Shown here piece by piece: positions 59,201-63,416 of a stretch of DNA of 64,000 nt. This DNA is from Caldicellulosiruptor bescii DSM 6725 (GTDB lineage: Bacteria; Bacillota; Thermoanaerobacteria; Caldicellulosiruptorales; Caldicellulosiruptoraceae), in NCBI RefSeq assembly GCF_000022325.1, contig NC_012034.1, positions 1,134,501-1,198,500 of the forward strand. The letters run 5' to 3'. Position 1 is the first letter of the stretch. The number at the start of each line of letters is the position of its first letter. Made by a program: the position numbers and the translations under genes. The notes beneath the pieces were generated by a model, which was given only the letters and a program-made list of their open reading frames with translations, had not been told where the DNA came from and did not search any database.

Positions 59201-59229
59201 AAAGAGGGGAACATTCCCCTCTTTTGTTT
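59201..59229. terminator. Bidirectional terminator between the coiled-coil gene and the ArsR-type regulator
   Basis: 9-bp perfect stem AAAGAGGGG / CCCCTCTTT, 6-nt loop, T-tail TTGTTTT on the plus strand; AT-rich on the other side. Confidence 0.85.
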
Positions 59230-60143
59230 TATACTTCCTCATAAAATATTCGAAACTTTATATCCTGGTCATAGTTTCCAAAGTTTCTTCCAAAAAGAGT
59301 AACTCCTCCAATGTTCTTTGCGTGATCAGGTACAGCAACTCTGAACCTTATTTCATTTTTGGACTCAATATCAATATCTTTTATAGTGACATTAGAAATT
59401 TTAAATCCGTCTATATATGTCCCATCTTCTGAAACTGAAAGAAGTTTTAAAAGTCCATACTGGTTCCAGTTAGGGAACCACCAGTCAGGTGTAAAGATTC
59501 CTTTAGTCTCTCCTCCAAAATCCCCTGGGCTTGTCCAGTAACCAAGTTCAACTCCATTTAAGTAAAAGTATATATCTGAAGGCCAGTTTTCACTAACACC
59601 TGGGGCTTCTGAAGAAATTTCAAATGAAATCTGAATTTCAACAGCTTTTTGATTTTGGCGCAGAAAATTGGGGATTATATATTCTACATAACCCTTTGTA
59701 AACCAGATAATATCACAGTTAACATGCTCAGGATGAGCAAAGTATTTGGGGTCATCCACCTCTCCGATTAACTTGTCTTTTGTAGCAAGTCCGCAGGTTG
59801 GATAAACCTCAAAGATAGAATAATTACCAACTTTGATTTCGCATTCATATAATTTTTGAGGATGCTTTGTGACAATGTTAATAATTATTTTGTCTTCAAC
59901 AAGACGGCAAATCTTTTGATTGCCATGTTTTCCTGCAGCCGCACTGATTGTAACAATCCCAGCAGCAATTAGCTTTTTCATGTGCTGAGTAACTGCGCCA
60001 TTTGTAAGTCCAAGTTTTTGCGCAATTTCATTCATATTCATTTCACGATGTTTACTCAGAAGGTTTATAATTTCTAATCTTGCATCAGATGCTAAAGCTT
60101 CAAAGAGAATTTTTGCTTCTTTGAGATTGTCTATTTGTTTCAT
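59229..60143 (-). CDS. ArsR-type regulator with large C-terminal putative ligand-binding domain
   Basis: 304 residues. N-terminal winged helix-turn-helix (about 10-80; SDARLEIINLLS, EIAQKLGLTNGAVTQHMKKL) of the ArsR superfamily, but without the metal-binding CxC motif. The remaining about 220 residues look like an all-beta sandwich rich in Trp, Tyr, Asn and Asp (YFYLNGVELGYWTSPGDFG, PDWWFPNWNQYGLL), as in carbohydrate-binding folds; no family name could be assigned. ATG at 60143 follows GGGTGG by 9 bp; the longer frame to 60212 is upstream of its promoter's start site. Divergent from the arabinofuranosidase gene, so control by an arabinose-related ligand is inferred. Confidence 0.85.
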   Translation of the reverse strand: MKQIDNLKEAKILFEALASDARLEIINLLSKHREMNMNEIAQKLGLTNGAVTQHMKKLIAAGIVTISAAAGKHGNQKICRLVEDKIIINIVTKHPQKLYECEIKVGNYSIFEVYPTCGLATKDKLIGEVDDPKYFAHPEHVNCDIIWFTKGYVEYIIPNFLRQNQKAVEIQISFEISSEAPGVSENWPSDIYFYLNGVELGYWTSPGDFGGETKGIFTPDWWFPNWNQYGLLKLLSVSEDGTYIDGFKISNVTIKDIDIESKNEIRFRVAVPDHAKNIGGVTLFGRNFGNYDQDIKFRIFYEEV

Positions 60144-60183
60144 GATTTTTATTCCACCCTTTTTTATAGATTTGAACATTTTT

Positions 60184-60212
60184 ATTTTAGCTGGTTTTAA
60201 AATAATTTGCAA
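60184..60212 (-). promoter_or_regulatory. Promoter of the ArsR-type regulator gene
   Basis: Minus strand TTGCAA, 17-bp spacer, TAAAAT. Transcription start near 60177. It overlaps a 16-bp repeated element that recurs before abfA. Confidence 0.65.
60195..60212. repeat. Copy 1 of a repeated element (regulator promoter)
   Basis: TTAAAATAATTTGCAA inside the regulator's -35/spacer; the same 16-mer with one change recurs at 60389-60404. Confidence 0.5.
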
Positions 60213-60261
60213 GAAATGAGCAAAAGCTTATGAACTTAAACTGAGTTAGCTTGTATGTGGA

Positions 60262-60295
60262 CAAGTTTTTATTAAAAGTTTTAATAACAAACTTG
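60262..60295. promoter_or_regulatory. Long dyad overlapping the abfA -35 box, candidate operator
   Basis: Arms CAAGTTT / AAACTTG outside and ATTAAAA / TTTTAAT inside, separated by short asymmetric spacers (2 and 3 bp) around a single central G. The right arm ends inside the -35 TTGATT. Confidence 0.6.
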
Positions 60296-60321
60296 ATTTT
60301 TATGAATGCTATCTATATAAT
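60293..60321 (+). promoter_or_regulatory. Promoter of abfA
   Basis: TTGATT, 17-bp spacer, TATAAT. The leader to the start codon is about 90 nt, AT-rich, and ends with AAAGGAGG. Confidence 0.75.
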
Positions 60322-60381
60322 TTAACTAAAAATATTTTAATTAAGAATAAATAAAAATACGTGTATTGAGAATTTGCTTAA

Positions 60382-61935
<1,554 letters not shown>

Positions 61936-62068: not shown

Positions 62069-62099
62069 AAAAGATATATTCATGGAAGGAGATGAGAGT

Positions 62100-63416
62100 A
62101 TGCTCAAAATAGCTATCATAGGTGCAGGAAGTGGAGTTTTCACAAGGAACTTGGTAAGAGACATTTTGTCATATCCAGAGCTAAGAAACTCTACAATAGC
62201 GCTTATGGACATTGACAGTATAAGGCTTGAATTTATGAGAAAAGCTCTGCAAAAGCTCATTGAACAGGAAAAGTATCCTACTAAACTTGAAGCTACAACT
62301 GATAGAAAAGAGGCTTTGAAAGGTGCAAAATATGTTATTGTCACAATACAGATTGGAGGTTTAAAACCTTTCGAGTATGACATTTACATTCCTCTAAAAT
62401 ATGGTGTAAAACAGGCAGTTGGTGATACAATAGGTCCGGGTGGAGTTTTCAGGGCTTTGCGAACAATACTGGTTTTACTTGACATTGCAAAGGACATGGA
62501 AGAGCTGTGTCCTGACGCACTTTTGCTCAATTATGTAAATCCAATGGCAATGAATTGCTGGGCGTTAAATAAGGCTACGAATATAAAAAATGTAGGGCTT
62601 TGTCACAGTGTTCAAGGAACTGCTGAATTTTTAGCAAAAATTATTGGGGCAAAAATGGAAGAAATTTCATACTTATGCGCAGGTATAAACCATATGGCAT
62701 GGTTTTTAAAATTTGAGTGGAATGGGAAAGATGCATATCCTCTTATAAGGGAAAAAGCAAGTGACCCCGAAATCTATACACAGGATGTTACAAAATTCGA
62801 AATACTAAAACATTTTGGATATTATGTAACAGAGTCAAGTTTTCACATGTCTGAATATGTTCCCTATTTTAGAAAGAGCGACGATTGGATAAATAAAATC
62901 CATAGAACACATTCATGGCACAAAGAACATTACAATGGTATGTATCTGCACTGCTGTTTAGATGCTGCGAAAACTTTGCTTGAAGACCTGAGGAAAATGG
63001 CAGAGGCAGACTACATCGACCCCAAGAGAAGTAACGAATACTGTGCAACTATCATCCATTCCATAGAGACAAATACTCCAGCTGTGATAAATGGTAATGT
63101 TGAAAACAAAGGTTTAATAACAAATCTACCTGAAGGATGTTGCGTTGAAGTACCATGTTTGGTTGACAAAAATGGTATTCAGCCAACTTATGTTGGAAAT
63201 CTACCACCACAGCTTGCAGCTTTGAACAGAACAAACATAAACGTTCAAGAGCTAACTGTTCTTGCTGCTTTGACAGGTGATAGGGAAGCAGTTTATCATG
63301 CAATTATGATGGACCCTCTCACAAGTGCTGTTTTGGATTTAGACCAGATACGCCAGATGGTAGATGAGATGTTTGAAGCTGAAAAAGAATGGCTGCCAGA
63401 AAAGTTTTATAGGTAA
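62100..63416 (+). CDS. GH4 family alpha-glycosidase (NAD+ and Mn2+ dependent)
   Basis: 438 residues. Rossmann start MLKIAIIGAGSGVFTRNLV, the metal/substrate site NYVNPM and the CHSVQG motif with Cys168/His169 that bind Mn2+, and AGINHMAWF. GH4 acts by a redox-elimination mechanism. The CHSVQ form points to the alpha-galactosidase (MelA) / alpha-glucuronidase side of the family rather than the 6-phospho-glucosidases; exact substrate is undecided. ATG at 62100 has AAGGAGATGAG upstream; the ATG at 62082 lies before that. Next to abfA, it could help process hemicellulose side chains. Confidence 0.92.
   Translation: MLKIAIIGAGSGVFTRNLVRDILSYPELRNSTIALMDIDSIRLEFMRKALQKLIEQEKYPTKLEATTDRKEALKGAKYVIVTIQIGGLKPFEYDIYIPLKYGVKQAVGDTIGPGGVFRALRTILVLLDIAKDMEELCPDALLLNYVNPMAMNCWALNKATNIKNVGLCHSVQGTAEFLAKIIGAKMEEISYLCAGINHMAWFLKFEWNGKDAYPLIREKASDPEIYTQDVTKFEILKHFGYYVTESSFHMSEYVPYFRKSDDWINKIHRTHSWHKEHYNGMYLHCCLDAAKTLLEDLRKMAEADYIDPKRSNEYCATIIHSIETNTPAVINGNVENKGLITNLPEGCCVEVPCLVDKNGIQPTYVGNLPPQLAALNRTNINVQELTVLAALTGDREAVYHAIMMDPLTSAVLDLDQIRQMVDEMFEAEKEWLPEKFYR

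Follow-up and report, generated by a model that had tools for sequence, protein, structure and literature searches.

In Bacillus subtilis, arabinose-utilization promoters are repressed by AraR, which binds cooperatively to paired, in-phase operators composed of inverted TTGTA/TACAA-type halves (PMC4218819). For Caldicellulosiruptor bescii, the arbA–abfA gene pair and the name ArbA are given by Rodionov et al. (2021; PMC8579813), who propose that the divergently encoded ArsR-family protein ArbA potentially controls abfA, and who predict one candidate AraR site and three ArbA sites, conserved genus-wide, in the intergenic region (positions drawn in their supplementary Figure S1); the AraR targets named in the parts of that paper drawn upon here are abfA, XDL, araI, axg, and araBRD. 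By title and term counts, this appears to be the only paper in the literature on Caldicellulosiruptor and ArsR that treats ArbA. An arabinan cluster of Geobacillus 56T3 also places an ArsR-annotated gene beside an ABC transporter, a GH43 arabinanase, and an arabinofuranosidase, a likeness to ArbA at the level of annotation alone in the part of the source considered (PMC4428132).

The present analysis has in common with Rodionov et al. (2021) the gene pair, the proposed regulators, the intergenic region, and the deduction of repression from site position; because the pair and ArsR-type control of abfA are already in print, the finding itself is ordinary. It differs in dividing a conspicuous dyad into an AraR half-box and a -35 element, in describing a matching ArbA motif outside the genus, and in modeling the C-terminal domain of ArbA, none of which occurs in the consulted portions of that paper's text (PMC8579813). 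The window analyzed is a stretch of 64,000 nucleotides of the C. bescii DSM 6725 genome (NC_012034.1, positions 1,134,501 to 1,198,500), and coordinates are those of the window. The gap between arbA (minus strand) and abfA (plus strand) comprises 274 bases (60144–60417), and the features of the locus are as follows.

59229–60143, minus strand: arbA, regulator of 304 amino acids, with a winged helix (residues ~1–90) and a predicted jelly-roll C-terminal domain (~93–304)
60182–60205: probable ArbA operator 1, TTATTTTAGCTGGTTTTAAAATAA, overlapping the arbA promoter (motif, genus conservation)
60184–60212, minus strand: arbA promoter, TTGCAA-N17-TAAAAT (pattern search)
60249–60266: AraR-type box, GCTTGTATGTGGACAAGT (genome pattern search, 8 of 11 genus promoters)
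60262–60295: dyad, probably an AraR half-box, an inner A+T palindrome, and the -35 element (sequence, shuffles, genus promoters)
60269–60287: inner palindrome, TTATTAAAAGTTTTAATAA, a weak third ArbA site or chance (pairing in 11 genomes, motif scores)
60293–60321, plus strand: abfA promoter, TTGATT (60293–60298)-N17-TATAAT (60316–60321)
60332–60355: probable ArbA operator 2, ATATTTTAATTAAGAATAAATAAA, just downstream of the abfA -10 (motif, genus conservation)
60374–60397: possible further ArbA site, weak (third in the genus-motif ranking at 7.2 bits; direct repeat D2)
60418–61935, plus strand: abfA, alpha-L-arabinofuranosidase of GH51 type (Pfam Alpha-L-AF_C, 162 bits)
62082–63416, plus strand: GH4-family glycosidase gene (family scan)

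Both promoters are conserved across the genus, and the regulatory character that an initial annotation had given this region is supported. The form TTGANN-N17-TATAAT occurs in nine of 10 genus intergenic regions and in the tenth genome is kept at abfA beyond an insertion (stretch L011 lacks the abfA-side promoter owing to the insertion, and L105 was substituted for the same genome); it was also found upstream of abfA in L105 (genome G003) and L118 (G007). The arbA promoter form, TTGCNN-N17-TAAAAT, is present in all 10 regions. A GH4-family gene follows abfA in all five fetched genus stretches that reach past abfA (L098, L100, L101, L103, and L105; the copy in L103 is cut by the stretch end).

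The dyad, CAAGTTTTTATTAAAAGTTTTAATAACAAACTTG, can be read directly in the window at 60262–60295. Its outer arms (60262–60268 and 60289–60295) pair at seven of seven positions, as do the inner arms ATTAAAA (60271–60277) and TTTTAAT (60279–60285), which flank a single central G and are separated from the outer arms by two bases on the left and three on the right. The initial annotation had placed the dyad at 60262–60321; it does lie within these coordinates, but the span includes the promoter, and the dyad proper stops at 60295, the third base of the -35 TTGATT, so that the overlap with the promoter noted there holds. With a score of 14, this is the top hairpin-type dyad of the 274-base intergenic region, and the score was reached by three of 120 dinucleotide-preserving shuffles (mean maximum 9.6), a figure that pertains to this one A+T-rich intergenic region of the window; the dyad is therefore above chance, but modestly so. 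As a genome-wide motif, which the initial annotation had suggested seeking at other pentose genes, it was rejected: the dyad pattern, with unpaired positions free and up to three mismatches allowed, recurs nowhere in the 2.93-Mb genome, its sole match being the dyad itself.

We consider it probable that the dyad is a composite of an AraR half-box and the abfA -35 element, and that ArbA acts from the boxes at 60182–60205 and 60332–60355. The left outer arm, CAAGTTT, would be mostly the right half of the AraR-type box, the last five bases of which (CAAGT) are the first five of the arm. The right outer arm, AAACTTG, would be the -35 with the bases upstream of it; it contributes AACTTG entering the -35, where G001, G002, and G011 read CTTGACA. 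The A+T palindrome between the outer arms would be lineage-specific. From its position upstream of the abfA -35, the box at 60249–60266 would be bound by the arabinose-sensing AraR, and we infer that ArbA would bind across its own promoter (60182–60205), leading to autorepression, and at 60332–60355, where it would block initiation or escape just downstream of the abfA -10.

The AraR-type box takes the form ACTTGTAYRTRTACAAGT in eight of 11 genus promoters, starting 42–44 bases upstream of the -35. It resembles the B. subtilis AraR operators in its inverted TTGTA/TACAA-type halves and in its association with arabinose genes; however, the halves are spaced TTGTA-N4-TACAA in the boxes found here, none of which has the N2 spacing of the B. 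subtilis consensus, and abfA has a single box, as opposed to the paired boxes at three B. subtilis promoters (PMC4218819, as far as considered). With up to one mismatch, the pattern occurs at four places in the genome (vs. one for a reversed-pattern control); with up to three mismatches there is no enrichment (nine vs. 23). The three places other than abfA lie by a locus that encodes two sets of ABC transporters, by a gene whose product has a fucose-isomerase C-terminal domain, and in the interval between a DeoR-type gene and a divergent ABC ATPase gene; they are consistent with XDL, araI, and axg among the AraR targets given in PMC8579813, as far as that paper was drawn upon; four of the five published targets thus have a plausible counterpart here, each with inverted TTGTA/ACAA halves. 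For the fifth, araBRD, recognized from a reading of three ORFs rather than by family scan, the best upstream candidate is only TTGT-N6-ACAA, with five mismatches to the 18-mer, a level also reached by an unrelated coding stretch. The sequence AATACGTGTATT near 60353 was considered as an AraR site and rejected because the aligned G006 sequence does not retain it, whereas the box at 60249–60266 recurs in eight of 11 genus promoters. Beside one chance AraR-like match lie ORFs (L114:465–1205) in which SPLGIE-like peptides recur and which look, by eye, like a repeat array of CRISPR type.

The probable ArbA operator has the consensus TTATTTTA-N8-TAAAAYAA. The boxes at 60182–60205 and 60332–60355 match the motif and are conserved alongside arbA: the arbA-side box is present on the arbA promoter in all 10 genus intergenic regions, and the abfA-side box scores 11.3–20.6 in nine of 10, with 6.8 upstream of abfA in L105. 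A genus motif was built from 10 genus site sequences, with C. bescii and G006 left out as sources; under it the two boxes take the top two places in the window, a rank that is not independent since one of the 10 training sites (from G009) is one base off the C. bescii arbA-side box. The weaker position at 60374–60397 overlaps a stretch that repeats, at 18 of 20 positions, the right-hand portion of operator 1 and its flank, and on the dyad the genus motif yields at best 4.8 bits (60267–60290; fourth in the gap, rank 29 in the window). The scores that the two operators receive from the motif trained outside the genus (below) are reached by shuffled gaps (n = 2,000) in 9% and 7.7% of cases singly and 2.65% jointly, and most weight therefore rests on genus conservation; of 86 A+T-rich stretches of the window, not one attains both scores. 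In the genome, WTATTTTA-N8-TAAAAYAA is matched exactly at 60182–60205 alone, and with up to one mismatch there are 13 matches vs. 21 for the reversed control, with no enrichment; further ArbA targets sought in this way were thus rejected, and no ArbA regulon is claimed past the arbA–abfA locus.

Relatives of ArbA outside the genus were represented by the best 80 of 210 encoding stretches, 53–59% identical and chiefly from Lachnospiraceae. A GH43, GH51, or GH127 relative is present in 52 of these 80 loci and a permease or binding-protein relative in 51, raw counts for which several of the glycoside hydrolase and sugar-binding protein queries were drawn from three of the same loci. One locus was dropped owing to a short upstream region, and in the remaining 79 upstream regions an unseeded count of exact dyads (arms of 5–6, spacers of 0–20) placed TTTTA-N8-TAAAA first (22 of 79) and TTTAG-N6-CTAAA second (21 of 79). 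After dereplication, which removed 15 regions, each form is found in 15 of 64 regions and either form in 25, against a mean of 0.66 and a maximum of 5 in 300 shuffles; 39 of the 64 have neither exact form. A spacer of 8 is seen in 15 regions, and other spacers between 0 and 16 account for 0–4 each. ArbA relatives beside arabinan-type genes in Lachnospiraceae thus appear, by sequence, to have the same operator, an addition made here. A motif trained on these 64 non-genus regions alone, seeded with TTTTA-N8-TAAAA and with symmetry imposed, places 60332–60355 first in the C. bescii gap (11.4 bits; sixth in the window) and 60182–60205 second among separate positions (7.5 bits; 15th in the window); because the seeding form had already been seen in the genus alignment, this is not a blind test. 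On the dyad the same motif gives 0.4 bits (60264–60287; rank 207 in the window).

These results divide the claim of the initial annotation that the divergent ArsR-type protein represses abfA through the dyad. The protein itself is the published candidate abfA repressor (PMC8579813, in the part considered); the dyad fares poorly as its operator, since the motif from outside the genus favors the two boxes instead, five of the seven left-arm bases belong to the AraR-type box, the right arm falls on the -35 and the bases that precede it, and six of seven outer pairs persist in G007, where no arbA was found. In that genome, abfA has a perfectly palindromic AraR-type box and the -35, the inner arms pair at none of seven positions, and no ArbA-type box was found upstream of abfA (best score 3.4). 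Going upstream from abfA, the first large ORF of G007 (L118:1862–3274) is a GGDEF-domain gene in the same direction rather than arbA.

Within the genus, full-length arbA is found in 10 of 12 genomes (97–100% protein identity), with no match in G007 and only a weak 63-residue match in G008; abfA is found in 11 of the 12 and not in G008. The two genes diverge directly in G000, G006, and G009, and in G003 other ORFs sit between them; in the latter (L105:2165–4310) the abfA-side box, the AraR-type box, and the promoter are retained beside abfA together with the extra ORFs. In G001, G002, G004, G005, G010, and G011, abfA lies ~5–18 kb from arbA, and a transporter-type cluster stands between the two genes (L097, L099, L100, L102, L103, and L104). 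In five of these six genomes arbA diverges directly from the cluster, and in the sixth, G010, the two are separated by fragments of an ORF with a longer counterpart in G005. Among the cluster genes scanned are three sugar-binding proteins or permeases in G011 and G010, one GH43 in G011, and one GH51-type arabinofuranosidase in G002, where a 544-amino-acid cluster gene has no Pfam match at 1e-5; the remaining cluster genes were grouped by sequence similarity alone. It appears that the cluster was lost in C. bescii or gained in the other six. Second copies of abfA, situated away from arbA in G006, G010, and G001 (L115–L117), have no AraR-type box or pattern-matching promoter within 260 bases upstream, and the best ArbA scores upstream of them are 1.2–3.0.

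The pairing of the arms varies across the 11 genomes with abfA. With the register fixed to the -35, the outer arms pair at 7, 6, 6, and 6 of seven positions in G000, G006, G003, and G007, respectively, and at 1–4 in the other seven genomes, whereas the inner arms pair at seven of seven in G000 and G006, six of seven in G009, and 0–3 of seven in the other eight. As to whether relatives with the same gene pair keep the motif, a point raised in the initial annotation, the inner part is thus kept in the three direct divergons and is weak (3 of 7) in G003, where the insertion separates the pair, an outcome that does not refute the initial annotation. Against the composite, the intact or nearly intact inner palindrome of the three direct divergons is not what pure accident would predict, and PMC8579813, in the part considered, counts three ArbA sites, against two strong and one weak (60374–60397) found here. 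On the first point, a weak third ArbA site and chance with shared descent account about equally well for the distribution of the inner palindrome. We regard it as unlikely, while giving it some weight, that TTATTAAAAGTTTTAATAA serves ArbA as a third operator, weaker than the other two, and corresponds to one of the published predictions; the published number (PMC8579813), the restriction of strong inner pairing to exactly the direct divergons, and the 4.8 bits and fourth place under the genus motif all speak for it, but the motif from outside the genus hardly scores there, the inner arms lack the TTTTA-N8-TAAAA spacing, and in G010, which is nearer to C. bescii in abfA than G009 is (95.1 vs. 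94.3% identity) and in which arbA and abfA are not adjacent, only three of seven positions pair. The palindrome is moreover all A/T except for the central G, and chance pairing is therefore easy.

It is improbable that the dyad as a whole arose by chance in A+T-rich sequence: some shuffles equal its score, and both arm pairs are kept (at least six of seven each) in only two of 11 genomes, G000 and G006, but each outer arm falls on a conserved element, the left on the AraR-type box and the right on the -35, and the outer arms are therefore not random sequence. The same coincidence could instead mean an extended AraR operator, in which the box at 60249–60266 is joined by a third half-site, ACTTG, at the -35. 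All eight boxed genus promoters, even that without arbA, have CAA(G) facing CTTG at the -35 at a distance of 24–26 bases: G000, G003, G006, and G007 have a spacing of 26, and G001, G002, G009, and G010 retain facing CAAG and CTTG spaced 24–25 rather than 26. Further, at one of the three other C. bescii boxes (L110) a CAAG faces the left half at a distance of 27 bases, the chance of a facing half-site at 25–27 on either side being ~0.03 per box, and B. subtilis AraR binds in-phase pairs cooperatively (PMC4218819, as far as considered). The three unboxed promoters read CTTG (G011) and ATTG (G004 and G005); CTTGACA in G011, which lacks the box, indicates that CTTG can stand at a -35 independently of AraR. 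Neither CTTG nor CAAG faces the boxes at L107 and L108 within 60 bases, and a single half-site is weak alone, so an extended operator seems rather improbable, and the composite of an AraR half-box and the -35 is retained as the preferred reading.

ArsR/SmtB metalloregulators characteristically bind metal at a site in helix alpha-3 with an ELCxCD-type motif. ArbA resembles these proteins in its winged-helix domain, by both sequence and fold: the N-terminal part matches Pfam HTH_5 at 40.7 bits (cut-off 22; the top Pfam match is HTH_24, at 44.5) and NCBIfam HTH_metalloreg at 51.7 bits, below its cut-off of 55, and comparison of the fold gives Z scores up to 12.7. The N-terminal domain is thus an ArsR-type winged helix-turn-helix. 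It differs from the metalloregulators in its arabinoside gene context, in an additional domain of ~210 residues, and in the absence of the ELCxCD-type metal site, where ArbA reads MNMNEIAQKLG and no cysteine occurs in a 25-row alignment (23 of the 80 outside loci and two genus sequences); the homologue from G012 was left out of the domain alignment because of its stop.

The winged helix filled the fold comparison of the whole protein, and the C-terminal domain was therefore modeled alone, giving a beta sandwich with a mean pLDDT of 85.8. Its best structural matches include CBM6, CBM35, and CBM36 modules, xylan-enzyme domains, and Cry-toxin domains, all within ~1 Z. The match to 2cdp has a Z of 9.3, an rmsd of 3.1, and 123 aligned residues; among the 50 matches listed, Z is 8.0–9.3 over 112–149 residues with identities of at most 15%, modest values in which the carbohydrate-binding modules tie with Cry-toxin and enzyme domains, and a Z of 8–9 may reflect merely a common arrangement. 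Foldseek matches are to PorU, BcsB, and Cry proteins, with a best E of 3.6e-4. The C-terminal domain is a predicted jelly roll that may resemble carbohydrate-binding modules of CBM6/35/36 type, a possible likeness by predicted fold alone. ArbA would probably be released from its operators by an arabinoside bound to this domain. The longest invariant run of the alignment is the aromatic FTPDWWFPNWNQYG (25 of 25 rows), which lies mostly within a low-confidence loop of the model (residues 207–228).

The analysis supplies a concrete, footprintable candidate operator for ArbA and illustrates how two adjacent but unrelated elements can together look like one striking dyad. It also hints that, in many bacteria of the gut and rumen, an ArsR-type repressor may sense sugars by means of a domain like those that bind carbohydrates. 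It is an evenly balanced question whether ArbA represents a widespread family of sugar-sensing repressors at arabinan and arabinoside loci, extending from Caldicellulosiruptor to Lachnospiraceae, that combine the ArsR-type winged helix with a jelly roll like those of carbohydrate-binding modules, share a TTTTA(G)-N6/8-(C)TAAAA operator, and have FTPDWWFPNWNQYG as the sugar site.

The arbA DNA is 92–99% identical across nine relatives, and the adjoining upstream stretch is 38–57% identical in eight of the nine comparisons and 89% identical in that with G006 (gaps were counted, and some stretches were trimmed at a fixed length). By sequence, this difference points either to an exchange of arbA or to its being under strong constraint. 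In the sister genus, genome G012 (L016; L106:1471–2388) encodes an arbA homologue of 47% identity with one in-frame TGA, possibly a decayed gene, the upstream region of which scores only 8.4 bits with the ArbA motif.
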